From Prochlorococcus sp. AG-436-M02 (GTDB lineage Bacteria; Cyanobacteriota; Cyanobacteriia; PCC-6307; Cyanobiaceae), in contig QCPL01000006.1 in assembly GCA_003212515.1 (NCBI GenBank), positions 1 to 64,000 of the forward strand: a stretch of 64,000 nt of DNA. The letters run 5' to 3'. This document shows, in pieces, positions 2,607-17,525 of this stretch. Position 1 is the stretch's first letter; each line of letters starts with the position of its first letter. The translations under genes were made by a program, and so were the position numbers. The notes beneath the pieces were generated by a model. It was not told the origin of the DNA. It saw only the letters and a program-made list of their open reading frames with translations, and ran no database searches.

Positions 2607-3668
2607 TTGAACTTCTCTTCTCGGGCTGTTTTTTTTCAAAGCAATTCATCTAGTTATAAGAAGCATAATCAAGAAAGCTTAAGGCCTGTTATTGCAGTAA
2701 CAATGGCCACCAGTCGACAGGGATCTTCAGTCGTAAGGCATTTGTCCAAAAATGGTATTTTTCGGATTCGAGCAATTACTCGTTCTCCCTTTAGTAAGCG
2801 AGCTGAGCTTTTGGCCAAGTTGCCAAATGTCGAAATTGTCCAAGGAGATCTCCTGGAACCAGAAAGCTTAGAAAGAGCTTTTTCAGGGGTTTATGGAATA
2901 TTTGGCAATACGACTCCCACAAAAGGGTGGATATTTGGCCGTGGAAGCATGGTTCGTGATTATGAGATAGAGCAAGGGAGAAACTTAGTAGACGTAGTGA
3001 AAAAACTTGCTGACTTGGGAACATTAAAGCACTTTGTTTTTAGTTCAGTATGCAAACCCAAAGACCCTCTGAAAAGTCAGCCAGCGCCTGGACATTTCAC
3101 AAGCAAGTGGAGTATTGAGGAATATATCTTGATTAATGGGTTAAACAAACTTTCGACAATTCTTCGACCTGTTAGCTACTTCGAAAATTTCGATAGTGAT
3201 CTTCCTGGTGTGCAGATTTCTCAATCAAGTTTCCCTGGAGTTGTCCACAAAGACAAAGCTTGGCAAACCATCGCAGTTGATGATGTTGGACTATGGACAA
3301 GGGCTGTTTTTGAAAATCCCCAAAAGTTTTGGGGAGAATCAATGAATATTGCTGGAGAAGAGATGACTGGACAAGAAATGGCAGCTCTTTGGCAAAAAAT
3401 AAATGCTAAGGACTCTACATCAGTACGCTATTCAATGGTCCCGCGCAAACTTATTAATTTCATTGAACACGATATTGCACTAATGGCTAGCTGGATAGAA
3501 AGAGCAGGTTATGGAGCAGACTTGAAAGCACTAAAAGTCCTAGCAGATGAGCTAGGCATAACTATGACCCCGCTATCTTGTTGGCTTAGAGAAAAGATTT
3601 CATCAGGCAATACTCAAAAAAGATTACCTAATATTGATTTACAAAGAAAATTTGTAACTGCGACCTAG
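2607..3668 (+). CDS. NmrA-like NAD(P)-binding oxidoreductase whose 3' end is formed by att1
   Basis: A Rossmann-type N-terminal region (RPVIAVTMATSRQGSSVVRH) is followed by a downstream pattern typical of NmrA/atypical short-chain dehydrogenases: LRPVSYFENF and AWQTIAVDDVGLWTRAVFEN. The usual GATGxxG is altered to MATSRQG, which may weaken cofactor binding. The annotated start is TTG (2607); a start closer to RPVIAV would fit the family better. The stop codon TAG (3666-3668) lies inside a tRNA-derived attachment sequence (3658-3681), so recombination set the last codons of this gene. Substrate unknown. Confidence 0.7.
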   Translation: MNFSSRAVFFQSNSSSYKKHNQESLRPVIAVTMATSRQGSSVVRHLSKNGIFRIRAITRSPFSKRAELLAKLPNVEIVQGDLLEPESLERAFSGVYGIFGNTTPTKGWIFGRGSMVRDYEIEQGRNLVDVVKKLADLGTLKHFVFSSVCKPKDPLKSQPAPGHFTSKWSIEEYILINGLNKLSTILRPVSYFENFDSDLPGVQISQSSFPGVVHKDKAWQTIAVDDVGLWTRAVFENPQKFWGESMNIAGEEMTGQEMAALWQKINAKDSTSVRYSMVPRKLINFIEHDIALMASWIERAGYGADLKALKVLADELGITMTPLSCWLREKISSGNTQKRLPNIDLQRKFVTAT

Positions 3669-3681
3669 TGCTCCCAAAGCC
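3658..3681. other. Partial tRNA-Pro attachment site (att1)
   Basis: The 20 bases GCGACCTAGTGCTCCCAAAG match the anticodon-arm side of the tRNA-Pro 3' half exactly. The acceptor side is gone. It marks the left end of the element that carries the first integrase. Confidence 0.8.
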
Positions 3682-3785
3682 CTGGTACGGACCCAGTGAG
3701 ACTGAGCTTTTCCTAGTTATAACTTCAATCAGGGGCTAAGAAGTTTTGCAATGATACGCAGACTAGACACAACTTTCGCTTGCAT

Positions 3786-3810
3786 TTACACGCATCCGTG
3801 TGTAAAAAGA
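3786..3810. promoter_or_regulatory. Putative integrase arm sites, left end of element 1
   Basis: TACACGCA (3787-3794) is followed by CGTGTGTAAAAAGA (3797-3810). Both motifs recur at the right end of the same element (7617-7680). The TTTACAC/GTGTAAA halves also form a short inverted repeat. Confidence 0.65.
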
Positions 3811-3834
3811 GTGTAGTTACGACCCGGTGCTCTT

Positions 3835-4053
3835 TTGATTGAAAAGTGGACACCAACCAAAGAACAAAGCGAAGGCGTAGTCACTCGGACTGTTGATTTC
3901 TTCTTAGATGAACTGAATGAATTGCAGGAAGAATTGGATTGTCCTGATGAATTTATTTTTGATCTTTTAGGAGCCATAAGGAATAGATGGTCTCCTGAGA
4001 GCTGCCATTCACGCATGAGAGAACTTAAGAAGGAGAATCCTGATGCCTTCTAA
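3835..4053 (+). CDS. Small acidic protein overlapping the integrase start
   Basis: This is a 72-residue, Glu-rich, predicted all-helical protein (FFLDELNELQEELDCPDEFI), with a TTG start. Its 3' end overlaps the integrase start by 11 bases, so translation is probably coupled. Position and size would fit a recombination directionality or regulatory protein, but no DNA-binding motif is visible. That role is a guess from context only. Confidence 0.55.
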   Translation: MIEKWTPTKEQSEGVVTRTVDFFLDELNELQEELDCPDEFIFDLLGAIRNRWSPESCHSRMRELKKENPDAF

Positions 4054-5290
4054 AGAAGTTCAGCCTGCTTGGGTCAAAGAATTTAGGAAGGCAGTTAAAG
4101 CTTCATGCCCTAAAGGTTGGCTTGTGATGCCATGCAGAAAAGAAAGCATGAGGGTGCAAGTTTGGAAAAAGAGTGTCCGTATTGCTGACGTCACTATTCC
4201 CTACGCATGGAATGAAGCGTCATGGCCCGATGCACTTCTAAGAATTAGAGCTGCTGCGAAAGCATATGAAGAGTCAGACAGAAAATTAGAAATTAGAAGT
4301 TGCTTCAATATTGCTCATACTGTTTCCAGCAAAAATAAAACTGATTGGGATAGTGCGATCAATTTATATAGAGAGCACAAAAAAGATCGCGTAAAAGATT
4401 CAACTTGGAAGAGTAAATATGACCCCGTTTTTCAAATTGCGCTTAAAGCACTTAAGAGTTCAAAGAGTCCAAAAGATGGACCTGCGCTTTCCAAAATTGC
4501 GTTGAAGAAATGGAAAGCAGGAACGCCAATGCATCGCCACATGCGATTAGCGCTTTATGGGTTCCTCAGATTTTGCGTACAGGAGCAAAAGTTTGAATCC
4601 ATATGGTTGCCGCCGGCAGTTACAGATAAAGATGTCGTTACGACTAAAAAGAGAATTGGCTATCCACTCACTGATGCTCAGATACTCAGGCTGTTGGATT
4701 CATTCCCTGAAGATGAGAACGGTTGTAAGTGGCGCTTTGCCTTTCAGTGCATGGCTGTTTATGGCTTAAGACCAGAAGACCTCCGCTACTTACATACAAG
4801 GAACGGAGGCCAAGAGATCTGGTCTAATTATGAAAAATCTAAGGGTGGAAAGAAAGGAGAAACAACTGATGCAAGGCGTTTATATCCCTTGCTTGTACAT
4901 GATGTTGATGGTCCTGTTAATTGGAATTTGAAGGAGCAACTGTGTATATGCGAGCAAGAGGGGAAAAACTTGTTGCCTTCTTTAGGTGAGCCAGGGAATG
5001 CAGGGGATAGATGCAAGTCTTACCTCTCTCGTCGCAAGGTGTGGGAAGCCATTCGAAAGGAAGTGGCTAGAGAAAATCAGGAGTTGACCCCTTATAGCTT
5101 TAGGCATCGATATGCCTATTACGGACACAACCGACCAAAGGTAGATGGAACCTATAGAGCACCCAAACAGGTTGCTGAAGCAATGGGGCACGAATTGGAT
5201 ACGCACCTTTTGGCCTACTCCAGATTCAAAACTAAAGATCTTGCAGATCAGTTTGATGAGGGAGTAATACCTGTGAAAGTGGCGGCTTGA
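4043..5290 (+). CDS. Tyrosine recombinase (integrase) of element 1
   Basis: The 415-residue protein has an N-terminal arm-binding and core-binding region (about 1-200) and a C-terminal catalytic domain. Catalytic residues read as Arg243 in VYGLRPEDLR, box II PYSFRHRYA with Arg354, His383 in AMGHELDTH, and nucleophile Tyr392 in LLAYSRFK. The His that usually opens box II (HxxR) is Tyr351. It sits just inside att1, facing inward, the position expected for an element integrated at the tRNA 3' end. It would cut and rejoin DNA at the tRNA-Pro sequence. It shares the YSFRH variant and layout with the integrase at 10284-11555. Confidence 0.92.
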   Translation: MPSKEVQPAWVKEFRKAVKASCPKGWLVMPCRKESMRVQVWKKSVRIADVTIPYAWNEASWPDALLRIRAAAKAYEESDRKLEIRSCFNIAHTVSSKNKTDWDSAINLYREHKKDRVKDSTWKSKYDPVFQIALKALKSSKSPKDGPALSKIALKKWKAGTPMHRHMRLALYGFLRFCVQEQKFESIWLPPAVTDKDVVTTKKRIGYPLTDAQILRLLDSFPEDENGCKWRFAFQCMAVYGLRPEDLRYLHTRNGGQEIWSNYEKSKGGKKGETTDARRLYPLLVHDVDGPVNWNLKEQLCICEQEGKNLLPSLGEPGNAGDRCKSYLSRRKVWEAIRKEVARENQELTPYSFRHRYAYYGHNRPKVDGTYRAPKQVAEAMGHELDTHLLAYSRFKTKDLADQFDEGVIPVKVAA

Positions 5291-5301
5291 TTATTTAATT
5301 A

Positions 5302-5380
5302 TTGCCGGGGGATGGATAGCGCATACAACGCCCCCTGTATTCACGAGTCACTCGCTTTTGTATTGCAGGCTCCCCGGCAA
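5302..5380. other. GC-rich structured intergenic element
   Basis: The 9-bp arms TTGCCGGGG (5302-5310) and CCCCGGCAA (5372-5380) enclose internal short helices ATACA/TGTAT and CGAG/CTCG, giving a branched fold of about 80 nt. It follows the integrase stop codon. It could be a structured 3' UTR, a small RNA, or a replication or packaging signal. No tRNA T-loop is present. The rest of the 5291-5585 gap shows nothing recognisable. Confidence 0.5.
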
Positions 5381-5585
5381 GAATTTCTCAGAATAAACCT
5401 TTGTTTCTTTCTCAGGAAAACCTGACTAGGCGATCTAGATTGAAAGAAAGAACTCTTCTCTTTGGACCTCGACAGGCAAGCAATTACTGATCCAAGGCCT
5501 TCTTCTTTCGAGGGCAATGAAGGCTTTGGGCTTGTAGAAGCAACAATCGTGTTGAGGGTTATCTCGATTTTTTCAAAAGAAGTGA

Positions 5586-6386
5586 ATGAATAATCAGGCT
5601 TGTCTTCAATTAAAGGTAATTGTCCCTTTAATAACGGGAGTGCTAAGTGTGATAGCCCTACCTATAACAGTTAGATCAGGTGGAAGCATCCAAGACCCCA
5701 CGTACTGCAAGGACGTAGTGGGTCCTCCTCAAGATTGCACCACCACTCCAGAACGTTACGAACTTACCATTTATGAAATGGGCATATGCTCATCTGATCC
5801 TCTACCAGGTGGAGACAATTCAGAATTTGATGACTCCAGTTGCGTAAAAACATTAGATAACCCTAATGGTCAAAAAGCTGATCTAACAAACAGAGCATCA
5901 GTTGATTTGACTGCTGGGACAACGTATCGGCCTCCCAATGGGACCTACACCCATTCCTATCTTAAATTCAGCAATGTCATTGGCATGAGGGGTACTGTTG
6001 AAACTTCCCAGGTTTATTATTCAAAATCAAATTTGGATGTAGATGGAGCTTCCATACCATCAGTGACACCTCCTGCCGAAAATTGGGACGATACAGTTAC
6101 TGATATAGGCGATACAGGAGGATGTGGTGGCACTGTTTCATGGTCAGGTGAAGAGGGAACGATGAAGGCTTTACTGTCTTGTACAGACGCGAGCTCGTCA
6201 GATGCCAGGCTAATCGCTGTATATAAACCTGATTCGCAACTTATAATTGATGACGATACGGAAGGATTACAAGCAACATTCTTGGTTGAAAATTTGGGGC
6301 TGGAGGCAGGAGTAGATGAGGAAGGTGACGGACAACCAGATCAATTTGACAGTGCTCCATTCAGGGTGCGTATAGAAACGTTTTAA
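5586..6386 (+). CDS. Secreted Cys-containing protein, unknown function
   Basis: The 266-residue protein has an N-terminal hydrophobic segment (VIVPLITGVLSVIALPI) consistent with a signal peptide or anchor. A long Asp/Ser/Thr/Gly-rich, beta-looking region follows with several cysteines (C39, C51, C68, C86, and two more after residue 175), suggesting disulfides outside the cytoplasm. The phrase ERYELTIYEMGICSSD and a later FRVRIETF end suggest a beta-sandwich fold. I do not recognise a family. It is probably a surface or periplasmic cargo protein of element 1. Confidence 0.6.
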   Translation: MNNQACLQLKVIVPLITGVLSVIALPITVRSGGSIQDPTYCKDVVGPPQDCTTTPERYELTIYEMGICSSDPLPGGDNSEFDDSSCVKTLDNPNGQKADLTNRASVDLTAGTTYRPPNGTYTHSYLKFSNVIGMRGTVETSQVYYSKSNLDVDGASIPSVTPPAENWDDTVTDIGDTGGCGGTVSWSGEEGTMKALLSCTDASSSDARLIAVYKPDSQLIIDDDTEGLQATFLVENLGLEAGVDEEGDGQPDQFDSAPFRVRIETF

Positions 6387-6655
6387 TGATCTTCTCCGTT
6401 TCTGATTTTTATCTGTAGGCGTCTCTAGGTGTTCATTTGACACAAAAACCTATAGACAAATTCTTAATTACTTTCAATCTCCTTAATATCGGTAGCCAAT
6501 TATCAATAATGGGTCCTTCTTTGGCAGTTCTTCATGGGTTGTCGCAGCGGCTCAGCTTGCCTCTAGTTGAGAATTAACAAAAGCATGGACGGTTTACTTT
6601 TATTGAGAAAAATTAGTTACAGCAACCCTTTTACCGGAACATATGAAGCCTTTGG
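6387..6655. other. Intergenic, nothing recognised
   Basis: This is spacer between the secreted-protein gene and the convergent HTH gene. No convincing gene, hairpin with T tract or repeat was seen. Confidence 0.5.
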
Positions 6656-6877
6656 TTAACGACTACTGTGTAATACGCCGTCTGGTCTCCATTGAGCTAT
6701 TCCTGCCATGTGTTCACCTAAAGGTGGCTTCCCTGGAGGCTTTAAATTCAGATATTTCGTGCCTTCAATTTCACTGACGTAATCATCTAGCCAGCCGTCT
6801 TTAAGCATTCGATAAATCTGACTTCGAGACTTATAACCAAGGATTCGGCTCGCTTCTGTGATCGTTGCAAGAGGCAT
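6656..6877 (-). CDS. Excisionase-like helix-turn-helix protein
   Basis: The 73-residue product starts PLATITEASRILGYKSRSQI, an HTH of the MerR/excisionase (HTH_17) type: T-I-T-E-A-(S/A)-R-x-L-G..S.SQIYRML. Proteins like this act as directionality factors or repressors in integrating elements. It lies inside element 1 on the strand opposite the integrase. ATG start. The exact role is inference. Confidence 0.65.
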   Translation of the reverse strand: MPLATITEASRILGYKSRSQIYRMLKDGWLDDYVSEIEGTKYLNLKPPGKPPLGEHMAGIAQWRPDGVLHSSR

Positions 6878-7131
6878 AACAGGACCTGGCGAAAGGAATA
6901 GAAGTGTCCATACTTATTTCTCCTAAAGCGCTGCTAATACTGTTTAATTTGCTCTCTAGAAGACCTGTGGTTGTTAAGTCGTCCCTACTTTAAAAGCCCG
7001 TGCCTAGGAAAATTCCGCGCGAACGAACGACCCACCGGGTTTCTCTTAGGAAGGACCCATTAAACGCATAGGACGCAAAAACCGGGGTTTTTTAACAGAG
7101 AGGGGGTGGTGAAAAAGAGTGGGGCCAAACC
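6878..7131. other. Intergenic, unusually GC-rich toward the right
   Basis: No gene was found. Around 7077-7091 AAAAACC.GGGTTTTT forms a short palindrome that could end transcription from either side. Base composition rises in G and C approaching the twin hairpins. Confidence 0.4.
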
Positions 7132-7183
7132 AGGCAGGACTACCACGAACTGCCTTTTGGGAGGCCCAACCACGAACCTCCCA
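7132..7183. other. Twin hairpins with the same loop motif
   Basis: Hairpin 1 is AGGCAG (7132-7137) paired with CTGCCT (7150-7155). Hairpin 2 is TGGGAGG (7158-7164) paired with CCTCCCA (7177-7183). Both loops are 12 nt and both end ACCACGAA. Stems differ while loop size and the 3' half of the loop are kept, which points to selection on the loop. They lie 19 bp beyond the stop codon of the capsid remnant. Confidence 0.65.
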
Positions 7184-7201
7184 CCCCGCTTAAAGCACCG
7201 A

Positions 7202-7612
7202 CTATGCAGCGATGGCGTCCTTAATCAGACCGAAGGATTCACCATGGCGAACACCTATATCGATAGTGGTCAAAGCACGGATTCCGATGGTGCCCTTGGC
7301 AAAATCTGTGAACGGATCGATTTCTATCTCAACGCCAGACCACTGCCCAATGAGGAGATCAGAGAAACGACCGTAGAGAATCGCGCTCAAGTTGCTACCG
7401 CTTCCTTTAGAGAGATTGCTTGGAACGTTGTTAGAAACGAGCATTCTTCTATTGGCAAAACGTGCCTCGCCTAGCTCTCCACCAAATGGATTGAGGAAGT
7501 ATGCACCGTTGGAATCTTTCAACTGACTGATAGCTGATTCGACCTTGCTATCGGATACACCAAGTATAGCGTTGGCAAACCTCAGAAGAGCAAAGAAAAC
7601 CTGTATTTCTAA
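7202..7612 (-). pseudogene. C-terminal remnant of an HK97-type phage major capsid protein
   Basis: Reading from about 7612, the frame gives ALLRFANAILGVSDSKVESA, then AYFLNPF, RRMLVSNNVPSNLSKGSGSN, LYGRFSDLLIGQWSGVEIEI and IGIRALTTIDIGVRHGESF. These are the hallmark C-terminal blocks of the HK97 capsid fold: (V)SNxVP, G.FS..(L)IG......V, and R....D..VR..ESF. The N-terminal delta domain and most of the shell domain are absent and there is no ordinary start codon, although TTG at 7522 could start a 106-residue piece. No terminase, portal or protease is nearby. It suggests element 1 once carried, or captured, packaging genes. Confidence 0.75.
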
Positions 7613-7616
7613 AAGT

Positions 7617-7680
7617 CGTGTGTAAAAAGAAGCCTCAAACCCCTTTCAAGAAAGAAGCCCTACACGCATTTCTACACGCA
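7617..7680. promoter_or_regulatory. Putative integrase arm sites, right end of element 1
   Basis: CGTGTGTAAAAAGA (7617-7630) is identical to 3797-3810. It is followed by a direct pair TACACGCA at 7661-7668 and 7673-7680 (12-bp period), matching TACACGCA at 3787-3794. The pair lies about 20 bp outside att2. Confidence 0.7.
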
Positions 7681-7701
7681 GGGCGTTGAGACTGATCTTA
7701 G

Positions 7702-7753
7702 AAACCTAGTCGGGGCGACAGGATTCGAACCTGCGACCTAGTGCTCCCAAAGC
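7702..7753. other. tRNA-Pro attachment site (att2)
   Basis: These 52 bp are identical to the 3' half of the resident tRNA-Pro, from beyond the acceptor end to the anticodon loop (CTCCCAAAGC). The tRNA 5' half is not present, so it is not a functional tRNA. It separates element 1 from the next segment. Confidence 0.9.
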
Positions 7754-7787
7754 CTCGGATGATTTACGTTAATTGACCAAGAAAGAT

Positions 7788-8072
7788 CTATTTAATCGAA
7801 TGTTCCTTTATTAAAGTTGATAGTTTGTTTACTCGAGGCTCATCTATAGGCCTTGTAGCGTCAAGTACAGCCGCACAACATAAAAACCAACTTGCCCCAC
7901 TTTCTAAATCCAGGCTTTCAGAAATGTTGGGAGGAGCAACAGAGAGAGAAGTTATTTCTCCAATGTGCAGAAAAGTCTCCCATAGCTCAGCTTCTAAGAA
8001 ATCGAGCTCGACTTTTGAAAGAAGCTTTGTTGCTACAAAATCTTGTACTAAGTCGGTTAATTCAAGAGTCAT
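7788..8072 (-). CDS. Hypothetical acidic helical protein
   Basis: The 94-residue product (MTLELTDLVQDFVATKLLSK...) is Leu- and Glu-rich and has no signal or membrane segment, with an ATG start. The minus-strand frame has the more protein-like composition; overlapping plus-strand frames are Ser/Cys-rich and look like shadows. It is divergent from the 75-residue gene that starts 45 bp away. Function unknown. Confidence 0.55.
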   Translation of the reverse strand: MTLELTDLVQDFVATKLLSKVELDFLEAELWETFLHIGEITSLSVAPPNISESLDLESGASWFLCCAAVLDATRPIDEPRVNKLSTLIKEHSIK

Positions 8073-8116
8073 ATCTTTATTATGGCTCTTATTCCCATTA
8101 GAAAAAGCGTTTAAAG

Positions 8117-8344
8117 ATGGAAGGGTTGAAAGAGCATGTAGAGAGTCTTATTCAACCAAGATCGACAAGTATTCAGTTCAGGCAAAAACCAGACATTGAT
8201 CTTGATACTTGGTTAAGGATGGGTGAAGCGGCAAATGCTATCTGCCAAGAAATGGGATGGGTCATTAGTAGTCCTAAGACTGCTGCTGAATGGTCACTAA
8301 TTTATGAAGCTATGGAGAAAGCAAGAGAAGAATCAGTAAAATAG
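8117..8344 (+). CDS. Hypothetical small protein
   Basis: This 75-residue, helix-rich protein (DIDLDTWLRMGEAANAICQE, EWSLIYEAMEKAREESVK) starts at ATG with GTTTAAAGATGGAAGG around it and no strong ribosome site. It is not recognised. It lies in the att2-att3 segment, which has no integrase. Confidence 0.55.
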   Translation: MEGLKEHVESLIQPRSTSIQFRQKPDIDLDTWLRMGEAANAICQEMGWVISSPKTAAEWSLIYEAMEKAREESVK

Positions 8345-8405
8345 ATATGTCGTAGCGCAGAGCTTGTTGGCTCTCCATCGGCACTAAAAGCATTTCTACA
8401 AACTA

Positions 8406-8597
8406 ATGAACACACTTAAATGTGTGGCAGCATTTTGCATTGTCATTTTGCTATTGCCACACCTGATTCTTTGGTGGGCCTGCGAGAGTAGACCTACAAC
8501 AATTAACAAGATGCGTAGCTGGGGCTACACCTGGAAACAAATTGGCGAGAGATATAACGTGAGCGCTTCTACTGCTAGACGCTGGAGTCTGGCTTAA
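8406..8597 (+). CDS. One-helix membrane protein with C-terminal helix-turn-helix
   Basis: In 63 residues there is an N-terminal hydrophobic helix (VAAFCIVILLLPHLILWWA) followed by SWGYTWKQIGERYNVSASTA and RRWSLA. The second part reads as a resolvase/Hin-type HTH (W..IG..Y.VS.STARRW). A membrane-tethered HTH this small is unusual. Part of the N-terminus could be a mis-set start, but the hydrophobic stretch is continuous with the ATG frame. Role unknown. Confidence 0.55.
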   Translation: MNTLKCVAAFCIVILLLPHLILWWACESRPTTINKMRSWGYTWKQIGERYNVSASTARRWSLA

Positions 8598-8601
8598 TTA
8601 G

Positions 8602-8805
8602 TTATTTGCACATCGGTTTGTTTCTATAAACAGGTGAATCACAATTGATTCCTGGTGGTGATTCCTTGGTGGTTTTTTCTGACCAATCCATAATTGGAGG
8701 ATTTTCGTAAGGGTTTAAACCTTTATCTCTACCTTGCGTATCTTGTGGACCTTGGCTATTTGGTAAGCGGTAATTAGGAGTTAATTCGAGGTTGGCTTTT
8801 AGCAA
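8602..8805 (-). CDS. Small Pro/Asn-rich protein downstream of the pilin
   Basis: The 67-residue product (ELTPNYRLPNSQGPQDTQGR...) contains two Cys near the end (NCDSPVYRNKPMCK) and no signal peptide. Its ATG overlaps the 3' end of the pilin gene by 7 bases, so the two are translationally coupled. It may accompany the pilin, but no family is recognised. Confidence 0.5.
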   Translation of the reverse strand: MLKANLELTPNYRLPNSQGPQDTQGRDKGLNPYENPPIMDWSEKTTKESPPGINCDSPVYRNKPMCK

Positions 8806-9380
8806 TTAATTTTAGATGCTTTCCCTTTATCTTTTGATAAATTAACTTGGTTTACTCCAGTTTGAGTATTAAAACAAGCAGAAACACCTAAACCTCTATT
8901 TGAACAACCACTTTCTAGTAAGTAGCAATATTTTGATACGTGTACTGGATCAGCAATAATATGAGTCCTGGAACTATCAAACCTAATCCTAATGTGATGA
9001 TGTGCACTAGGACTATGCCATTCATTTGATGTGCCTACTACCCTCATCCCAACATTGTTTTTACAATTTTTGATATTCGTTTCAGGGTGTGAACAGGCTA
9101 TGACAGAGACATATTCATCTAAATGTTTGGCATATTTAGCTATAGAGCCATGCTCAGCGAAGTAGGACTTAGCTGCCTTGATATATGAAGACACAAGAAC
9201 AGCGGCTTCCGCTTGTCTTGCTTTTTCTTTGAAAGACAAAAATTGTGGGATTGCAATGGAGGAAAGGACTCCGATTACCATTACAACAACTATTATTTCT
9301 ACAACGGTGAACCCTTCTTCACCTTTCCTATCTTTAAGGTAACTGAGTAAAAGTAATTTTTGTTTAGCTTTTAAAAGCAT
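8799..9380 (-). CDS. Type IV pilin-like protein
   Basis: The 193-residue protein from ATG 9380 has a positively charged leader (LLKAKQKLLLLSYLKDRKGEEG), then the prepilin peptidase site G^FTVVE and the N-methylated hydrophobic helix IIVVVMVIGVLSSIAIPQFL. The globular part contains six or more Cys, likely disulfide-bonded. An upstream ATG at 9464 would add a poorly fitting N-terminus, while the 9380 start reproduces the usual picocyanobacterial pilin leader. It would be processed by PilD and assembled into a pilus or pseudopilus. A pilin as cargo in an integrative element could alter adhesion, DNA uptake or phage reception. Confidence 0.85.
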   Translation of the reverse strand: MLLKAKQKLLLLSYLKDRKGEEGFTVVEIIVVVMVIGVLSSIAIPQFLSFKEKARQAEAAVLVSSYIKAAKSYFAEHGSIAKYAKHLDEYVSVIACSHPETNIKNCKNNVGMRVVGTSNEWHSPSAHHHIRIRFDSSRTHIIADPVHVSKYCYLLESGCSNRGLGVSACFNTQTGVNQVNLSKDKGKASKINC

Positions 9381-9469
9381 TATTCCTTGATTTTTAGTTG
9401 CTAGAGAAAAGATAAACCTATTTGATTTTGTATCAATGAAGAAGCTAGCTTTCTTTATTGACATGTTAT

Positions 9470-9512
9470 TACTTCTCGTTTTTGGCTGATCTAGCTCAAG
9501 TCTTCAGGCAGC
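9470..9512. repeat. 43-bp dispersed repeat, copy B
   Basis: It matches 1722-1764 at 41 of 43 positions. It lies just upstream of the pilin gene's outer ATG, between the pilin and att3. Confidence 0.85.
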
Positions 9513-9627
9513 CTTTACAGCTTTATTTCTTTTGGCGTAAAGATCAGCAAGAAACAGAAATCAAAAACCTTAAAGGTCAACAAAAAGCACCTTCGTTCAG
9601 TCTCTTCCCTTGTACTTAGACAGCTTA

Positions 9628-9647
9628 TGGGGACACTTTTGGGGACA
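9628..9647. promoter_or_regulatory. Orphan arm-site-like direct repeat beside att3
   Basis: TGGGGACA occurs at 9628-9635 and 9640-9647 (12-bp period), about 20 bp outside att3. That is the same geometry as the pairs beside att2 and att4, but no matching pair is visible at the left end of this segment. Confidence 0.6.
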
Positions 9648-9668
9648 ACCCTAAACGCCCATTCCTTA

Positions 9669-9723
9669 AAAACCTAGTCGGGGCGACAGGATTCGAACCT
9701 GCGACCTAGTGCTCCCAAAGCAC
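9669..9723. other. tRNA-Pro attachment site (att3)
   Basis: This 55-bp sequence is identical to 19425-19479, which overlaps the resident tRNA-Pro. It starts AAAACCTAGTCGGGGCGACA and ends at the anticodon arm (CCCAAAGCAC). It is the distal boundary of the youngest element. Confidence 0.93.
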
Positions 9724-9849
9724 TATGTTGTACGAGTAAGACTGATCATTTTCTCTAGTTATAGCAACACTTCAACCCATTGGCCTGGAATGGGCTTGAG
9801 ACTAGGCATTGCCTAAGTAGAGCTAAGTATTTACCATGTACTTACTACG

Positions 9850-9870
9850 GAGAGTGCAAAGAGAGTGCAA
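9850..9870. promoter_or_regulatory. Putative integrase arm sites, left end of element 3
   Basis: GAGAGTGCAA is repeated at 9850-9859 and 9861-9870. The same pair with the same 11-bp period lies at 19385-19405 at the other end of the element. Confidence 0.7.
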
Positions 9871-9895
9871 CTCCACAACCCAGTGCTTATTTCTT

Positions 9896-10279
9896 ATGGA
9901 TAAAACAACGACTTGGTTAGTTAGAGGTGCAGCTGTTGTTGTAATAGGGTTTGGTGCTGCCTCACTGTTCTCCCAAAGCCCAGAACAAAAAGAAGAATTT
10001 CAAACAGACAGAATGTTCGAGAAAAGCTATGCAAGAGCTGAAAAGGAATTAAAAAAATATTGCGCCCCACTCTTTAGAAAATGTTTGACTTATAAGTACA
10101 GCGAGTTCAAACAAGCCGTCAAGAAGGGGAATGTAGAGAAAATAGTAATTTTCATAGACGCAGGAGCAGCGGTTGTTGAATTAAAAGATGGGAAAAAGGG
10201 GAAAGTCAATCTTGCTCCTGATCAAGATCTTTTGGGGCTATTAAATAAGCACAATGTCGAAATCAAAGTGGGCAATTAA
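9896..10279 (+). CDS. Membrane-anchored protein resembling the FtsH periplasmic (FtsH_ext) domain
   Basis: From ATG 9896 the product has 127 residues: one N-terminal helix (WLVRGAAVVVIGFGAASLF), a charged spacer with two Cys, then YSEFKQAVKKGNVEKIVIFI, VVELKDGKKGKVNLAPDQDL and LGLLNKHNVEIKV. The last 60 residues follow the FtsH_ext pattern (YS.F...V..G.V..V.I, V.L.DG....V.L.PD..LL..L....V...V). The AAA ATPase and zinc protease domains of FtsH are absent. An upstream ATG (9836) would place the N-terminus in the arm repeats and is unlikely. The stop is 4 bp before the integrase, so they may be co-transcribed. It may bind host FtsH complexes; this is inference. Confidence 0.65.
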   Translation: MDKTTTWLVRGAAVVVIGFGAASLFSQSPEQKEEFQTDRMFEKSYARAEKELKKYCAPLFRKCLTYKYSEFKQAVKKGNVEKIVIFIDAGAAVVELKDGKKGKVNLAPDQDLLGLLNKHNVEIKVGN

Positions 10280-10283
10280 ATAA

Positions 10284-11555
10284 ATGAAAGCCAGAGAAGC
10301 ATCAGAACCGTGGGTGCAAAGTCTAAGAACTTTCCTTAGAGACTCTGTAGGCCCAAAATGGCAAGTTAGAGAAATACGTGGAAAATCATATCTTGCTGTT
10401 CGCTATGAAGGTGAAAAAAGAGTTTTTAGGAATCTTGGGTTTACTTGGTCTAGGGGTAACGCAGCCCAAATCAGAGAAGCCGTAGAAGAGATTTATGACT
10501 TAGTAGTTAGAAAAAGTATTTCACTAGAAGAGGCAGTAGAGCGAGTTAAAAAGACCAAGGTGGCTACACCTAAGACAGCAAAAAGAGCTAATCCCAAAGC
10601 TCTCTTAAATGCTTGGGAAAAATACGAGTCCTTCAAAGTAAAAGTTGCAGGAGACGTAACTCAAGACACTTGGAACAAGGAATATGGGAAGACTTTTAGA
10701 AGGCTGAAAGAAGTTGCTGCTGCAAATGCAAACGACCTACTAATAGAAGTAGGCAAAAAATATGAGCCTGGAACTCGTAGCAGGCAAATCAGAGTCCAAC
10801 ATGTAGCAGCTTTTCTACGTTGGGCAGTTTCTAAGCAATCGGGCTATTTACTACCAGAAGATGCATGGACACCACCTCCTAAAAATTCTTTAGGTGACTA
10901 TGTAGGACGCAAGAGCAAAGAGAAACAAGCTCAAGCATCCGCTCCAACGGTTGTGATAGAAGACAAAGACTTACTAGAGCTGGTTGACTCACTACCGATT
11001 GACCTAGACACCTATGAGAAGAAGCACCGCTTAAGAGAGAGGGCTATGGAGTGGGACTTAGCTATAAAGCTTGCTATCACATACGGCTTAAGGCCCATAG
11101 AAGTTAGCTACGACTATTTAGAAGTCAGGAAGAATAGCAAGGAATACATGTTTTGTACCTACGCAAAACGAGCTGGAGCTGGCACAACAAAACCTCGAAG
11201 ATTGTTCCCATTGCATCCTGAGTGGGAACAGAAATGGAACCTTATGAAACGGATCAAACAGAAAGATCCTTTACCAAAAATGACAAGTGGCGCAGGAGAC
11301 AGTTTCAAGAATTATTTGAGGTTCAATAAAGTCTGGAAACGACTAAAGGAACAGAATAAAGTCGTGGTTTATTCCTTCAGGCACAGCTACGCCAAAAGAG
11401 GGCATCAGATCTATAAGTTGAGTGATACAGAAATGGCCGCAATGATGGGTCATACAACTCAAGTACATAATCAGGCCTATGCCCAATGGTCTAGTGAATC
11501 AATGCTGGAAGATTCCATGAAACGAGCTATCAAATTTAGAGATTTGACTAACTAG
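10284..11555 (+). CDS. Tyrosine recombinase (integrase) of element 3
   Basis: The 423-residue protein has a long N-terminal arm/core-binding region and a C-terminal catalytic domain with Arg270 (TYGLRPIEV), box II VVYSFRHSYA with Arg366, His390 (MMGHTTQVH) and Tyr399 (AYAQW). As in the first integrase, the first His of box II is replaced (Tyr363). It is encoded just inside att3 and flanked by GAGAGTGCAA pairs at both element ends. With 55-bp identical att copies it is probably the enzyme of an intact, possibly mobile element. The gene ends in CTAG shared with a convergent small gene. Confidence 0.92.
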   Translation: MKAREASEPWVQSLRTFLRDSVGPKWQVREIRGKSYLAVRYEGEKRVFRNLGFTWSRGNAAQIREAVEEIYDLVVRKSISLEEAVERVKKTKVATPKTAKRANPKALLNAWEKYESFKVKVAGDVTQDTWNKEYGKTFRRLKEVAAANANDLLIEVGKKYEPGTRSRQIRVQHVAAFLRWAVSKQSGYLLPEDAWTPPPKNSLGDYVGRKSKEKQAQASAPTVVIEDKDLLELVDSLPIDLDTYEKKHRLRERAMEWDLAIKLAITYGLRPIEVSYDYLEVRKNSKEYMFCTYAKRAGAGTTKPRRLFPLHPEWEQKWNLMKRIKQKDPLPKMTSGAGDSFKNYLRFNKVWKRLKEQNKVVVYSFRHSYAKRGHQIYKLSDTEMAAMMGHTTQVHNQAYAQWSSESMLEDSMKRAIKFRDLTN

Positions 11556-11722
11556 GCAGCTTTAAAATTTCTCTTTTCTAAGTCCCACATTTGAGAAGCA
11601 ATCCTAGAGGTGAATTCTCTGTGAACATTTCTGGAAAGAGTGTTTACGTGCTTCTTTGCTCTAACTTTTTCAGCACCAACAAAAAGGCTTTCCATTGCCA
11701 TTTCGATCTCTTGTTCTGTCAT
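11552..11722 (-). CDS. 56-residue protein convergent with the integrase
   Basis: This short minus-strand frame from ATG 11722 (MTEQEIEMAMESLFVGAEKV, then RAKKHVNTLSRNVHREFTSR) is charged and helical, with ordinary composition. Its stop codon overlaps the integrase stop through a shared CTAG, a 4-bp convergent overlap. It could be a small regulator. The plus-strand frame across it is Cys/Phe-rich and unlike a protein. Confidence 0.6.
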   Translation of the reverse strand: MTEQEIEMAMESLFVGAEKVRAKKHVNTLSRNVHREFTSRIASQMWDLEKRNFKAA

Positions 11723-11967
11723 GGATATTTTGTGAGGGCACCAAACCTACCTACGGAAACTGGGAAGCATATCCGACTTTTTACCTAATTAATTGGCATA
11801 GGCACAATCGCTATATATGGAGTCATTTAGCACTAACTGGTACTACTTGTCCCTAATTGTGCTATAAGTAATCAACCTTTCGGACACCTCAGCGAACAAC
11901 GTTAAGTCGTACGCGTTAACTGGTATGGGTGTGGATGATGAGTGGCTCTGTCCTCCCTTTTAGTTTC
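11723..11967. promoter_or_regulatory. Intergenic region with inverted GCACAAT/ATTGTGC sites
   Basis: GCACAAT (11812-11818) and ATTGTGC (11856-11862) are inverted copies 37 bp apart, with TTAGCACTAA between them. They lie ahead of a run of small regulator-like genes. They may be operator half-sites for one of the HTH or ribbon-helix-helix proteins downstream. No promoter is clear. Confidence 0.35.
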
Positions 11968-12183
11968 ATGACTAGAAAACAGAATCGTTACTTCAACAGA
12001 TTCCAGATGAACGGCAAATCACATGCCATTTCATCTAAATCTGACCTATCCGCATCTAACATCAGCAAAAGTCTTGACCGCCTTACTTCAGGGCGTGAAG
12101 CAATCCGATGGGAAGCAATAGGTTTACTAGAAGACGAAGCTGTTCAAGAAGTCATGCGAATTAAATCAATACCACTCGCTTAA
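11968..12183 (+). CDS. Small hypothetical protein
   Basis: From ATG 11968 the product has 71 residues (MTRKQNRYFNRFQMNGKSHA...), basic at the N-terminus and with a helical C-terminus (REAIRWEAIGLLEDEAVQEV). A GTG at 11929 would add 13 poorly fitting residues. It is followed 3 bp later by a DNA-binding protein gene. Not recognised. Confidence 0.5.
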   Translation: MTRKQNRYFNRFQMNGKSHAISSKSDLSASNISKSLDRLTSGREAIRWEAIGLLEDEAVQEVMRIKSIPLA

Positions 12184-12186
12184 TAC

Positions 12187-12414
12187 TTGTCTGACAACTT
12201 AAGACCCAAATGGCTCACAACTTCTCGTGCTGCGAGAGAGCTGAGCATTTCACGTAAGCTTTTGCTTAATTCAAAGGATCTCTTTGAAAAAGAAATCCAT
12301 TACAAGCAAATTGGCAAAGCACCTAATAGCCCCTTTGTTTGGAACTTAGAAGAAGTTCTGAACAAAGCTCCCTGGTTGCCCTCCTTAGGGAGAGGTAAGG
12401 CCGATGCCAGTTAG
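12187..12414 (+). CDS. Excisionase-like DNA-binding protein
   Basis: The 75-residue protein, TTG start, contains WLTTSRAARELSISRKLLL, an N-terminal helix-turn-helix of the excisionase/HTH_17 kind, followed by a wing-like segment (HYKQIGKAPNSPFVWNLEEV). Its location, between integrase and replication-type genes of the same element, fits a directionality factor or repressor. Its start is 3 bp after the previous stop. Confidence 0.6.
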   Translation: MSDNLRPKWLTTSRAARELSISRKLLLNSKDLFEKEIHYKQIGKAPNSPFVWNLEEVLNKAPWLPSLGRGKADAS

Positions 12415-12510
12415 AAAAGCCCCTTTGCCTTCCAAGAAGGAGCCAATTGAAGACTAATAACAATTAAGAGTTGTTAATTAGTTAGCCCTAAGTAATAACT
12501 AACTAGCCCT

Positions 12511-12543
12511 AAAGGGCTTGGGATCACTCTTAGGCCCTTTTTT
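12511..12543 (+). terminator. Rho-independent terminator
   Basis: AAAGGGCTTG pairs with TAGGCCCTTT through a GGATCACTCT loop (two G-T pairs), followed by a T run. It separates the small-regulator genes from the replication-type operon that starts at 12579. Confidence 0.7.
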
Positions 12544-12578
12544 ATGTCTATTTTGTTGACAATGACCACAACACCTAA

Positions 12579-12785
12579 GTGACTGAACAAGAAAAAATTG
12601 ATTTTTACAAGCAGGATATTACTGGTGCGCCAATGGTTGAACATCTTTCTTTTAGGTGTACCAAAAGGCTTGCAATATTCCTAAAAACGCTTGCCCTCAC
12701 TGAAGGGAGAGAATGTAGCGCAATTATTCGCAGGTTAGTTACTACAGCAGCTATCGAAGAGGGCTACAACATAAATGGCTACTAA
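12579..12785 (+). CDS. Ribbon-helix-helix-like small protein
   Basis: The 68-residue product, GTG start, has the segment HLSFRCTKRLAIFLKTLALT followed by GRECSAIIRRLVTTA. That is the strand-helix-helix pattern of CopG/Arc-type regulators (L.FR....L...L...A...G...S..IR.L). It leads a three-gene overlapping operon ending in the RepA-like ATPase, like copy-control genes of plasmids. TTGACA lies at 12555-12560 but no matching -10 is clear. Confidence 0.55.
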   Translation: MTEQEKIDFYKQDITGAPMVEHLSFRCTKRLAIFLKTLALTEGRECSAIIRRLVTTAAIEEGYNINGY

Positions 12786-12969
12786 TTTCATTACTGCTCA
12801 CCCCCTAGAAGAACCTCCTGGCTTCGGTGAAATTCTTACAGACATAGATATTGCACTTGAACCTACTTGGACTCAGTTAGCAGTCCTTTGCGCCTGCATA
12901 GAGATTGCAAAACAAAATGACTTGACTCTCAGAGAACAACTTCATACATGGAGGCCCTTTGATGTCTAA
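12775..12969 (+). CDS. Small hypothetical protein between regulator and ATPase
   Basis: This 64-residue, acidic protein (PLEEPPGFGEILTDIDIALE) overlaps the preceding gene by 11 bp and the following ATPase gene by 8 bp, so all three are translationally coupled. No family is recognised. Confidence 0.55.
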   Translation: MATNFITAHPLEEPPGFGEILTDIDIALEPTWTQLAVLCACIEIAKQNDLTLREQLHTWRPFDV

Positions 12970-14407
12970 TGAACGGGTCTTTAATAAACATACTGAGGCT
13001 TTTGAAAGATTAGTAATACTTAAGAAGCTCCCACGAGATCACAAACAAGTAGAGGGCCATGATTACAGCACCGATTTAAAAGTCGCACTCAAAGAGATAG
13101 ATCGAAAAGAAAAACAGCCAAACCTATCTGAAGTAAGGCAAAGATTTAATGCTTTTGAAAATAACTACTCCATTAAATCAGGAAAAGAAAAGAAAGAACC
13201 TCTTAACCTTTTAAAAGCTTCTAAAAATGCTGTTCATTTAATCAAAACTCAATGGGAGCAAATTCAAACTTTCAAGAAACCTGCCGAGAGAACCGCAGCT
13301 CTTGAATTTCTTAAAAAGGAATCTGGTCTAGGTCCAAAGGGATTTAATAATGTCGTCTTAGAATTAATAGCAGAGGAAAATGAAGATAATAAAAAATACA
13401 AAACCTTTGGGGCTTTAAAGAAATCCAAAGACCTTAAATCAGAACCTTTAATAGATCGCCTCCTACCTAAAGGAAGAACTGTTCTACTAGCTGCTGATGG
13501 TGGTACTGGTAAATCAACTCTTGGTTATGAAATTGCCGAGGCTATCAGTAATGGAGGCAAATTATTTGGTCAGTTACAAGCACAACAAGGACGAGTTCTA
13601 ATTTATCAATGTGATGAACCTCCTGTAGATGCTGATACAAAGGCAGATGTCATGGACTTAAGTCTTGATGAAGCTAATCACGAAATTCAATGGGACTTCA
13701 ATCCCTCCATGGTTCCCGATATGGAGCAAAAGATCATTAAAGAGAAATGGGATCTCGTAATACTGGATTCCTTTACAAAAATATTTGGCCAAGGCAGTGA
13801 TATGAATACTCCTGAAGTGGGTCTGTATGTATATGAACTAAATAAAGTTGCAAGTAGAACAGGGGCAACAATATTGCTCCCTCATCACTTAAATAGAAAT
13901 CAAGCTCAAAAAAATAAAAAACAAGACGGTGATAAAGAAAATTTTCGTAGAGATGTTTCTAAAGATGATCTCTATGGCAGTGTTTTTATCTTTAATGGCT
14001 GCTCTGATGTATGGGGCTTATGGATTGCTGGTAAACATGAAGGGCAAAAGTTATTTCACATGAAATACCTTAAGACTCGTTCTATGATCGCTCCCTCCAA
14101 TCACCTCTATCAATTTAAAGGTAATGATGAAACTCTTCGCTATGAAATGATCCTCAAATCTGATGGTGATATTGATGATGCTGAAACCATAGAAAAAGCT
14201 GTATTAATTCTCCTGAAGCAACATATTGGTGAGAAGTTTTCTATTAATCAGATCTATCAGAAAATTCCTAAATGTAGAGATAGTAAAGATTACTTGGGAC
14301 AAGTTGTTAGTCGTATCTATCGAAATAGAGACGTAACTGGCGTGGGTCGTTGTAGGTCTCCTCATCAAACAGGTGGTAGACCTTCTTTCCTTTATTTCAA
14401 AAGATAG
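12962..14407 (+). CDS. RepA-like AAA/RecA-fold ATPase
   Basis: The 481-residue protein has a Walker A motif AADGGTGKSTLGYEIA (near residue 180), Walker B-like WDLVILDSF (near 265) and ATILLPHHLNR, the arrangement of the AAA_25/RepA replicative-helicase group. An N-terminal 150-residue charged region and a C-terminal winged-helix-like region (SINQIYQKIPKCRDSKDYLG) flank it. ATG 12962 is preferred over an upstream TTG. It probably acts in replicating or maintaining the excised element. Iteron-like repeats lie 800 bp downstream. No primase motifs were seen. Confidence 0.75.
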   Translation: MSNERVFNKHTEAFERLVILKKLPRDHKQVEGHDYSTDLKVALKEIDRKEKQPNLSEVRQRFNAFENNYSIKSGKEKKEPLNLLKASKNAVHLIKTQWEQIQTFKKPAERTAALEFLKKESGLGPKGFNNVVLELIAEENEDNKKYKTFGALKKSKDLKSEPLIDRLLPKGRTVLLAADGGTGKSTLGYEIAEAISNGGKLFGQLQAQQGRVLIYQCDEPPVDADTKADVMDLSLDEANHEIQWDFNPSMVPDMEQKIIKEKWDLVILDSFTKIFGQGSDMNTPEVGLYVYELNKVASRTGATILLPHHLNRNQAQKNKKQDGDKENFRRDVSKDDLYGSVFIFNGCSDVWGLWIAGKHEGQKLFHMKYLKTRSMIAPSNHLYQFKGNDETLRYEMILKSDGDIDDAETIEKAVLILLKQHIGEKFSINQIYQKIPKCRDSKDYLGQVVSRIYRNRDVTGVGRCRSPHQTGGRPSFLYFKR

Positions 14408-14410
14408 ACG

Positions 14411-15070
14411 TTATGAAATTGGTTGATTGCTTGGGGACAATTTATCCTTTGCAATATATATCAAGCAGGTAGGAACTATCCATCCAAAAAATGTACTAAA
14501 TAGATCAAAAATAATATGAAGAGGTAGATTCGCACTTGATGCTTCCGTAATTCCAATCAGAATCAATGCTAAAAAGAAGAAGAAAAGATTTGAGAAAAAT
14601 ACTACCCATCCCTTATTCATAGATAATTCTTTACTCTTCCTCAATGACTCCAAGGGGCCGAGAGAATCTTCCTCAGCAATTAATAAGGCATATTGATACC
14701 TCTTCAACAAGACAAAGCCTGGTACTATAAAACATATAAAACCAAGCCCTACAAATAGAGCAACTAATAGCTCTACTTTTAATAATTTATAAATTTTAAC
14801 AAGGTTAAAAGAAACTTTGAATTTAGTTGAATTTTTTATCGAATTCAATGCATTTACTACTATTCTAAAAACGAAAAAGTATATGAGACATAATAGAATA
14901 AATCCTAGAATTGTAAGGGGAGTAATTAAAAGTGGGCTTATATTTTCTATGCTATACGGTATCGAATAAAGGCAAAGCCAACAAAGAAACAAAGGTAATG
15001 TAATTAATCCCCTTAGCTTAAAACTAGCTGCTTGTTGAAAAGTACTTTTAATTAAATTAATTGCAAGCAT
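14411..15070 (-). CDS. Polytopic membrane protein, GPDPase-membrane-domain-like
   Basis: The 219-residue protein has about five to six transmembrane segments (for example LITLPLFLCWLCLYSIP, LLVALFVGLGFICFIVPGFV, VVFFSNLFFFFLALILIGI). The cytoplasmic motif LGPLESLRKSKELSMNKGWV resembles the conserved P.EAL..S..L......W of glycerophosphodiesterase-type membrane domains and related YciC-like families. It is convergent with the ATPase gene, 3 bp apart. The function in the element is unknown, and codon use looks more AT-rich than its neighbours. Confidence 0.55.
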   Translation of the reverse strand: MLAINLIKSTFQQAASFKLRGLITLPLFLCWLCLYSIPYSIENISPLLITPLTILGFILLCLIYFFVFRIVVNALNSIKNSTKFKVSFNLVKIYKLLKVELLVALFVGLGFICFIVPGFVLLKRYQYALLIAEEDSLGPLESLRKSKELSMNKGWVVFFSNLFFFFLALILIGITEASSANLPLHIIFDLFSTFFGWIVPTCLIYIAKDKLSPSNQPIS

Positions 15071-15200
15071 TTTGCTAATTTCCTTTAGTCCAATATTAAG
15101 AGAATATCATCTGAACCTTCTATTTCTTAGGGTGTCAGTAAAAAACGTAAAAAGTTCCAGACTATTTAGTCCCAGAGGGGGATTACAGACATAAAAAAGT

Positions 15201-15243
15201 ACCTTTTTAAGGTGTTAGACCTTTTTAAGTTCCTTTTTAAGGT
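15201..15243. repeat. Three iteron-like CCTTTTTAAGGT repeats
   Basis: Near-identical copies start at 15202, 15220 and 15232, the middle one lacking a G. Each is itself a short inverted repeat (ACCTT-TTT-AAGGT). They lie in an otherwise empty 312-bp gap (15071-15382) downstream of the RepA-like gene. They may be initiator-binding iterons or operators. Confidence 0.6.
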
Positions 15244-15382
15244 CTCTAATTACTTACTACTACAATCTTCTCTCTACCTTTTTGATCTTTCTTCTATACA
15301 CACCCCTAGGTATCAGCAATGCTCAATTTTTTCACATTTTAAAAAATACATTTAAACTACAGGAAATAATTTTGGTCAATTC

Positions 15383-15556
15383 ATGGGTATTGAAAGAGAA
15401 TTAGCGAATTTATGTCGACGTTTAAATAAGATTGTTCCAATAGTATCTCCACCTGAGTTAAGGATGCACATCATTCAGGCAGGGATGAAGGCTCCTAACG
15501 TAACAAGTCATTGGGAAATGATTGTTTACGTAGAACCCAGAGAGGCCCTTTCATAA
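15383..15556 (+). CDS. 57-residue hypothetical protein
   Basis: This short frame starts at ATG 15383: MGIERELANLCRRLNKIVPI, then PELRMHIIQAGMKAPNVTSH and EMIVYVEPREALS. The composition is protein-like and it fills the space up to the convergent recombinase gene, ending 13 bp from it. Not recognised. Confidence 0.55.
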   Translation: MGIERELANLCRRLNKIVPIVSPPELRMHIIQAGMKAPNVTSHWEMIVYVEPREALS

Positions 15557-15569
15557 AAGAATTGCCCAT

Positions 15570-16151
15570 TCATGCAAAAGCTAGGGCAGCTTTCTTTTTA
15601 GCTTCAGGAGAGACCTCTAGATAACGCTGAAGCGTGCCGAGGTCAGAGTGCCCTGAAAGCTCCATAAGATCTCTCAAGGGGATGTTCTTGGCGCTTGCTG
15701 CTGTCAATGCAGATCTTCTGAAACTATGAGTCGAGAGTCCATTAAAACCGCATGACTTAGCCGATTTTCTTAATACATAATCAAAGCTTTGGCGCGTTAA
15801 ATGCTCCCCTGGAGCCTGACCTGGGAATACCCAGTCCATTGCTTTAACAGGTTGATTAAAATCAGCCTTCCAGGAATGAAGAATAATTTTCAAATCTGGA
15901 TGTAATGGTATTTCTCTACTTTTCTTAGCTTGTTTGGTAATTGGAGCTGGAAAGACAATTGAGTGGTCGTTAATGTAACCCCATTTAAGTTGCAATCCTT
16001 CCGAGACTCTTGCGCTTGTTCTCCTAAGAAGATGAGCCAAGACGCGATGCGAACCTTCTGGAATCTCTTGAAGAAGGATATTCAATTCCTCAGAGGTTAA
16101 GACCCTCGCCCTTCCATAGCGATTGATCTTCATAGTTAATTGTCGAAGCAA
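15570..16151 (-). CDS. Tyrosine recombinase, catalytic domain only
   Basis: This 193-residue protein has all catalytic residues but no N-terminal DNA-binding region: Arg48 (RRTSARVSEGLQL), Lys-containing KKSREIPLHP turn, box II THSFRRSA (His142, Arg145), SGHSD His168 and Tyr177 (TLQRYLE). Unlike the two large integrases it has the canonical HxxR. It is XerC/D-like in the core. It lies mid-element on the opposite strand, so it is not the integrase of the tRNA junction. It could resolve replication dimers or invert a local segment. Confidence 0.88.
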   Translation of the reverse strand: MLRQLTMKINRYGRARVLTSEELNILLQEIPEGSHRVLAHLLRRTSARVSEGLQLKWGYINDHSIVFPAPITKQAKKSREIPLHPDLKIILHSWKADFNQPVKAMDWVFPGQAPGEHLTRQSFDYVLRKSAKSCGFNGLSTHSFRRSALTAASAKNIPLRDLMELSGHSDLGTLQRYLEVSPEAKKKAALAFA

Positions 16152-16467
16152 AGATAAGAGCTTTTGCTCTTATGTATATTAAAGCAAAATCAAGTCGTAA
16201 GTATCATTGATTAACTGCAAATCGTTGCACAATTAACTTTACTATTTCTTATCAAATTAGGTATTACTAATCAACACTATTAATTTGACAATTGGCGGGG
16301 TAATGGTTCAGAATTTCGGTAGATTTAGCGTGGCGTGGGTAACTTAAGCAGACAAATCAAAGGGCTTAATTATTAATTAGCAAACCTAATCAATTGTTGA
16401 CGCAAATGTAATACAATGTCCACGTAGATCACTTGCTATAGTTGCTTTATCCCTCTAAATAGATTGC
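16152..16467. promoter_or_regulatory. Divergent intergenic region with likely promoters
   Basis: This gap separates the minus-strand recombinase from the plus-strand 69-residue gene. It contains TTGTTGACG with TACAAT and TATAGT close downstream, but the spacings are not ideal, so no promoter is assigned firmly. Repeated ATTAATTA-type AT-rich words are present; no gene was seen. Confidence 0.35.
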
Positions 16468-16677
16468 ATGGATGATCCAAATTGGGAAGCATACATGCAT
16501 CCTTCAAGCTTGATGCAACGATGTACTAAATGTGGGCTACAGATCTTTGGGCCTAACACTAAGTATGCATATCAATGGGCAGAAATGGCTTATCACAAAG
16601 CTCAGCAAGGGGGGTCAAGTCCAGAAGCACTTAGGGATAAAAGATTAGGTCAATTTAGACCCAATAAATCTCTATAA
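16468..16677 (+). CDS. Small CxxC protein
   Basis: The 69-residue product (MDDPNWEAYMHPSSLMQRCT...) has a single RCTKCGLQIFG zinc-knuckle-like motif with just one CxxC, so metal binding would need dimerisation or His ligands. It is the first of three same-strand small genes. Not recognised. Confidence 0.55.
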   Translation: MDDPNWEAYMHPSSLMQRCTKCGLQIFGPNTKYAYQWAEMAYHKAQQGGSSPEALRDKRLGQFRPNKSL

Positions 16678-16704
16678 AAAACAAATTAGTTTATTACTTA
16701 TTCT

Positions 16705-17199
16705 ATGAACTCTCTAACAGTTGATTACACCGAAAAGTTTGCAGCCTTTTGGGCTAAGAGCTTCCCAGAAAGACCTTGCCCTCCTCTTCCAAAGCAGCAA
16801 GATGACCTACCACTAGCAGCTCAAATGCTTCTACAGAATGACGAGCCAATATTATTCCAGAATTTATTTGCAGGTAAGAAAGGAAGTGGAGCTTTGCCAG
16901 CAGATACGGCTACCAGGCTACAGAAGAATGAATTAATGCCTCAAGATGCTGTTGCACTACGAGCCGCAGGTTATGAACACTATGCACTTGCGTGTGAGAG
17001 CTTAGCTGCACGACTTGATGACAAAAGACTTGCAAATAGTGAGGCTGAAGGCAGGAAAAGATATTTAGAGCAAAAGAAAGCTAGAGAAGAATGGAATGCT
17101 TTACCACTTGGGCATCCAGCAAAAGCACCATCACCTGAAGCGGTTGCAAATGCTCGGAGGCAATGGGGCATCAGTGGTAGGCCGTCATGGGAGTTATAA
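16705..17199 (+). CDS. Hypothetical soluble helical protein
   Basis: This 164-residue, Ala/Leu/Lys-rich protein has a central helical region (EHYALACESLAARLDDKRLA, EGRKRYLEQKKAREEWNALP), perhaps coiled coil, and a C-terminal GISGRPSWEL. No signal or membrane segment. The next gene starts on the base after its stop codon, so they are co-translated. It has the look of an element-specific structural or DNA-associated protein, but no family is recognised. Confidence 0.6.
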   Translation: MNSLTVDYTEKFAAFWAKSFPERPCPPLPKQQDDLPLAAQMLLQNDEPILFQNLFAGKKGSGALPADTATRLQKNELMPQDAVALRAAGYEHYALACESLAARLDDKRLANSEAEGRKRYLEQKKAREEWNALPLGHPAKAPSPEAVANARRQWGISGRPSWEL

Positions 17200-17502: not shown

Positions 17503-17509
17503 TTGAACT

Positions 17510-17525
17510 AGATCAGCTAGAAAGG
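17510..17525 (+). repeat. Leader motif AGATCAGCTAGAAAGG, copy C
   Basis: It is the same 16 bases as the 3' ends of the 73-bp repeats at 1268-1283 and 18780-18795, here without the terminator hairpin. It lies 31 bp before the start codon at 17557. Confidence 0.8.

Follow-up and report, generated by a model that had tools for sequence, protein, structure and literature searches.

Tycheposon-type satellites of Prochlorococcus and Synechococcus are cited in PMC11389934. The locus described here lies in a 64-kb stretch of DNA (64,000 nt in all, hereafter "the window"), and it resembles these satellites in having a tyrosine recombinase, tRNA 3′-end borders in a nested array, a helicase-like gene and a capsid gene. 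It differs from them in that the window copy is a remnant, with only 118 capsid codons left. In our literature search, no paper was found that describes a structured capsid 3′ UTR.

The element at issue can also be compared with the intrinsic terminators that lie behind phage major capsid genes, with which it shares a stable hairpin just past the stop codon, often with a T-run. However, it is longer than these and branched, several lineages have no T-run, the HL subgroup of relatives has a constant loop, and the window has twin identical loops. A stem that covaries around a constant loop is typical of the cis-regulatory RNAs listed in Rfam, and the element is like them in this respect, but no Rfam family matches it. 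At gathering score, Rfam release 15 yielded no family for the capsid 3′ region, either in the window or in 12 relatives, and a permissive Rfam search gave chance-level matches only.

On balance, we lean towards reading the element as a 3′-end structure of the capsid mRNA (i.e., a terminator or stabiliser), in an elaborate and unlisted form, within a decayed satellite integrated at tRNA-Pro.

Genomic context

The window carries the following features around the hairpins:

3658..3680, minus strand: exact 23-bp copy of an internal tRNA-Pro segment, the probable far border of the segment with the capsid remnant
4043..5290, plus strand: tyrosine-recombinase integrase of the same segment (phrog_1 integrase; homologues in satellite loci)
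6656..6877, minus strand: small HTH-like ORF of the kind usually found next to the satellite capsid on its 3′ side (tblastn matches in satellite loci, the best 59%, in L285)
7202..7558, minus strand: HK97-type protease-capsid fusion (Pfam PF05065; phrog_10/617 major head protein), C-terminal 118 codons plus stop, the rest lost
7709..7753, minus strand: exact 45-bp copy of the tRNA-Pro 3′ end, an element border
9677-9723: exact tRNA-Pro copy, 47 bp
19433-19507: whole tRNA-Pro

The capsid remnant (coding part 7205-7558, stop 7202-7204, minus strand) is 63% identical to residues 418-535 of its intact counterpart at L123 in genome G064. Segment 3658-7753 holds the remnant, the hairpins, the HTH-like ORF and the integrase together, and 3658-19507 as a whole is a nested tRNA-Pro array, the copies marking probable stacked integrations. 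A tyrosine recombinase and a duplicated tRNA 3′ end occur together in the window, as in tycheposon-type elements, and we use the name "tycheposon-type satellite" in the sense of Hackl et al. 2023. The best reading of the hairpins is that they are part of a decayed phage satellite, integrated at tRNA-Pro, in a Prochlorococcus-type ocean cyanobacterium.

Two segments of the array carry tyrosine recombinases (4043-5290 and 10284-11555). At 18620-18790, the window has AATAGGTTCTTTCTGAGCG...TTCGATGTGGGTCATCCGAA, partly common to genome G039 (L136, about 8406-8466), and further on TTGACAG...GATCTACA with a terminator-like hairpin, an arrangement similar to that 3′ of the HL capsid element.

The twin hairpins

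Because the capsid gene is on the minus strand, the relevant RNA is the capsid 3′ UTR, and the loop is read in the transcript as TTCGTGGT. In transcript sense, the capsid stop and 11 nt are followed by these parts, in this order:

7184..7190, minus strand: outer stem 5′ arm AGCGGGG, which fits the AG[C/A]GG motif of relatives
7158..7183, minus strand: inner hairpin 1, TGGGAGG-TTCGTGGTTGGG-CCTCCCA in transcript sense and TGGGAGG-CCCAACCACGAA-CCTCCCA in plus-strand letters, with a perfect stem and 12-nt loop
7132..7155, minus strand: inner hairpin 2, AGGCAG-TTCGTGGTAGTC-CTGCCT in transcript sense and AGGCAG-GACTACCACGAA-CTGCCT in plus-strand letters, with a perfect stem and 12-nt loop
7118..7124, minus strand: outer stem 3′ arm CCCCACT, with one C-A mismatch (CCCCGCT or CCCCGCC in relatives)
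7111..7117, minus strand: CTTTTTC, a terminator-like T-run directly past the outer stem

The original prediction described twin hairpins with different stems, the same 12-nt loop length and the last eight loop bases in common, and this description was confirmed. It placed them 19 bp past the capsid stop, where we measured 18 nt. Three pairs differ between the two stems, each difference being compensated, and the eight shared loop bases are ACCACGAA on the plus strand. This octamer occurs at only two sites in the 64-kb window, both of them the hairpin loops, and since 0.81 sites are expected, finding it twice is not in itself remarkable. When 7100-7200 was shuffled with dinucleotides preserved, 2 of 20,000 shuffles gave such a hairpin pair (two non-overlapping perfect stems, each 6 bp or longer, with 8 loop nt in common), which is a local figure and not a window-wide p-value, the spot having been picked from 64 kb. 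Elsewhere in the window, every 100-nt stretch stays below 8 shared loop nt. The twin hairpins are real, and their origin by chance is unlikely.

In capsid sense, the 73-nt element is a GC-rich stem-loop structure (fold of -35.6 kcal/mol). A weak outer stem and the T-run, with five consecutive T in minus-strand sense, round it off as a terminator-like branched fold. The window outer stem is degraded, and alone it was not significant in an anchored test against shuffles; its C-A mismatch, at the third pair, makes the window the exception among the representatives examined. The automatic anchored search chose another 3′ partner in the window, a pairing that did not beat shuffles, and a terminator scan of the window made no call at CTTTTTC and the imperfect outer stem.

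Relatives at capsid 3′ ends

We gathered relatives via the capsid protein and not via the motif, taking the DNA 3′ of the stop codon at ~30 picocyanobacterial loci from Prochlorococcus and Synechococcus. Sixteen representative flanks have the motif [A/G/C]G[A/C]GG 4-27 nt past the capsid stop and can form an outer stem, starting near AG[C/A]GG, around one to three inner hairpins. With the stem anchored at this motif, which was defined only after inspecting the sequences, the scores of the 16 flanks added up to 289, whereas shuffles averaged 195 and peaked at 225. For 13 representatives, the outer stem was 90.6% paired, with double changes at six pairs, and its covariation score was 0.62 (0.19 when shuffled and at most 0.10 with slid partners), a value biased upward by the picking of 3′ arms for complementarity. 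In an unanchored helix search, a few single flanks beat their own shuffles and most, the window included, did not.

The relatives thus have stems supported by covariation, as a structured cis-RNA should, while the outer stem of the window has decayed. What ties the window to them is position, start motif and architecture, not a model score. G039 (L192) and G255 (L285) have related branched folds, each likewise containing two inner hairpins.

These comparisons bear on whether the hairpins arose by chance in GC-rich non-coding DNA next to a dead gene. The exact twin is unique to the window genome among the genomes searched and the matches listed, the outer stem has decayed, the site was selected out of 64 kb, and the fold z-score of the stretch with the twin hairpins is only about -2, all of which would fit a chance origin. 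However, the local shuffles rarely produced such a pair, the hairpins sit in the correct place with the AG[C/A]GG start of relatives whose stems covary, and the two-hairpin folds of G039 and G255 are a further argument against chance, so we consider this explanation improbable.

The twin itself was not found elsewhere. A twin ACCACGAA hairpin with differing stems was present in none of 399 other genomes of the family, among none of 269 ACCACGAA pairs examined and, for viral genomes, in none of the matches listed. Literal matches to the twin motif elsewhere were rejected as not being the same feature. The proposal that compensated stems surround a constant loop is supported for the HL subgroup, i.e., for relatives found via the capsid, and is not supported for the twin ACCACGAA/TTCGTGGT loop as a conserved signature.

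The HL subgroup

The subgroup, cluster B, comprises seven HL Prochlorococcus sequences located via the capsid. They were aligned with MAFFT, and their structure was then written by hand from the alignment. In this alignment, 93.5% of cells are paired, compared with at most 47% when partners are slid, and nine pairs are doubly changed. The hairpin loop GGGTCGA stays constant while the stem varies. A model of the subgroup (R1) was run over 266 HL genomes and gave eight strong matches, all eight at the capsid 3′ end, in keeping with the predicted linkage to HK97 capsid genes: a hairpin structure does lie at the 3′ end of this capsid family. Three weak matches came from genomes in which the capsid gave no match; one of the three is clearly the 3′ half only, without the inner hairpin. 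R1 does not find the window element.

A separate terminator lies ~45 nt past the structure in the HL subgroup. L156, L157, L160, L290 and L323 share a conserved GATTGACAG[T/C]YGATC, an imperfect dyad about 8-10 nt past the element, which sits between the structured element and this downstream terminator.

The loop segment GGGTC has its complement in a GACCC that lies, invariant, just past the outer stem, and L163 shows an analogous pair, GGGTTGT/ACAACCC. A GGGTC/GACCC pseudoknot in the HL RNA is only suggested by this, because the two segments never vary and loop-to-flank complementarity, tested over all flanks, was not significant alone (p 0.06-0.85 in the HL subgroup).

The element could be a cis-acting regulatory RNA whose constant loop (TTCGTGGT in the window, GGGTCGA in HL) sets capsid expression by binding a protein or by pairing with a distant sequence; the capsid protein and the small HTH protein are candidate binders. 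The HL loop kept amid a covarying stem, the complementary pairs in HL and L163 and the identity of the two window loops all argue for this, as does the word GTGGT, a weak signal present in 10 of 25 flanks (3.7 expected) in a test that spans many words and related sequences. Against this, the loop is not the same between subgroups, the HL complementarity is invariant and not significant alone, as noted above, and Rfam gives no match. We regard such regulation as a possibility, though not a likely one. An RNA-binding site at the window hairpins, which the original prediction had also raised, is likewise possible. Rather doubtful is the wider proposal of an undescribed, possibly pseudoknotted RNA family common to capsid-bearing picocyanobacterial satellites, in which the constant loop would be a putative protein or RNA site setting capsid output and the window would hold a lineage-specific form in which the binding hairpin is duplicated.

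RNA or DNA

In all 16 representatives, which are related and so do not count as 16 independent tests, RNA in capsid sense folds more stably than the complementary strand. Their outer stems have 13 G-U pairs versus one A-C. Both observations argue for a transcript running in the capsid direction rather than for a site in the DNA.

A packaging signal or replication origin had also been proposed for the hairpins. A DNA-level site of this kind (cos/pac or replication) would suit satellites, which need a packaging site; no terminase ORF was recognised in one compact satellite contig (L139), and C-terminal capsid stubs persist with the region that follows them in elements without the rest of the gene. 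However, the strand asymmetry points to a capsid-sense RNA, the location and the T-runs match a terminator or the 3′ end of an mRNA, the half match to R1 noted above lacks the inner hairpin, and the stubs may simply remain from cargo that was replaced at a fixed slot. We therefore hold a packaging or replication site to be very unlikely. The stubs had been considered as proof of a packaging site and were rejected as such, cargo replacement beside a fixed border explaining them equally well.

Likely function

A T-run or terminator occurs at the structure or soon after it in many lineages, and in several the T-run is immediately 3′ of the structure. The stem lacks a T-run in cluster A, L163, L164 and L285, so the lineages do not all share termination at this point as a function. 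Unrelated phages also often have hairpins behind their HK97 capsid genes (in capsid sense, z averages about -2), which makes an ordinary class of function probable: transcript end and message protection.

In the 3′-end reading that we favour, the twin hairpins would form the inner pair of arms in a branched RNA structure within the 3′ UTR of the satellite capsid gene, whose intact relatives have the stem near AG[C/A]GG and one to three inner hairpins described above. Judging from position, T-runs and strand asymmetry, the structure may end the capsid transcript ahead of the next small gene and may shield the capsid message from 3′ exonucleases. From their appearance, the two arms in the window could be a tandem duplication whose stems have since drifted with compensation. 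A terminator can do without a constant loop, so the identical loops would call for either a recent duplication or a binding partner.

Other conserved sequences near satellite capsids

Many satellites carry a second conserved non-coding element, AGGTTCTT...GGGTAATTTCGAGCCCCAAATTTTTCTAGGCA (~65 bp), no more than ~850 bp 3′ of the capsid (e.g., L155 at 7096-7161 and 7534-7596, L151 at 6785-6849 and 7281-7340, and L163 at 975-1039), and in some of them two inverted copies stand on either side of the small HTH gene. It is strong in relatives, but a leave-window-out model failed to find it at 6995-7061 of the window (E 5.2 for 15 nt).

Lone C-terminal capsid stubs of about 20-61 codons, mostly with the terminator region that follows, occur at L307-L313 (G256, G372, G201, G084 and G205). 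Two loci of G201 have ~800 bp around the capsid stub in common.

Significance

The element gives the coat gene of ocean phage satellites a defined 3′ UTR element, and thereby a handle for spotting satellite remnants. Should a partner bind the constant loop, this would reveal how a satellite controls its own capsid output.
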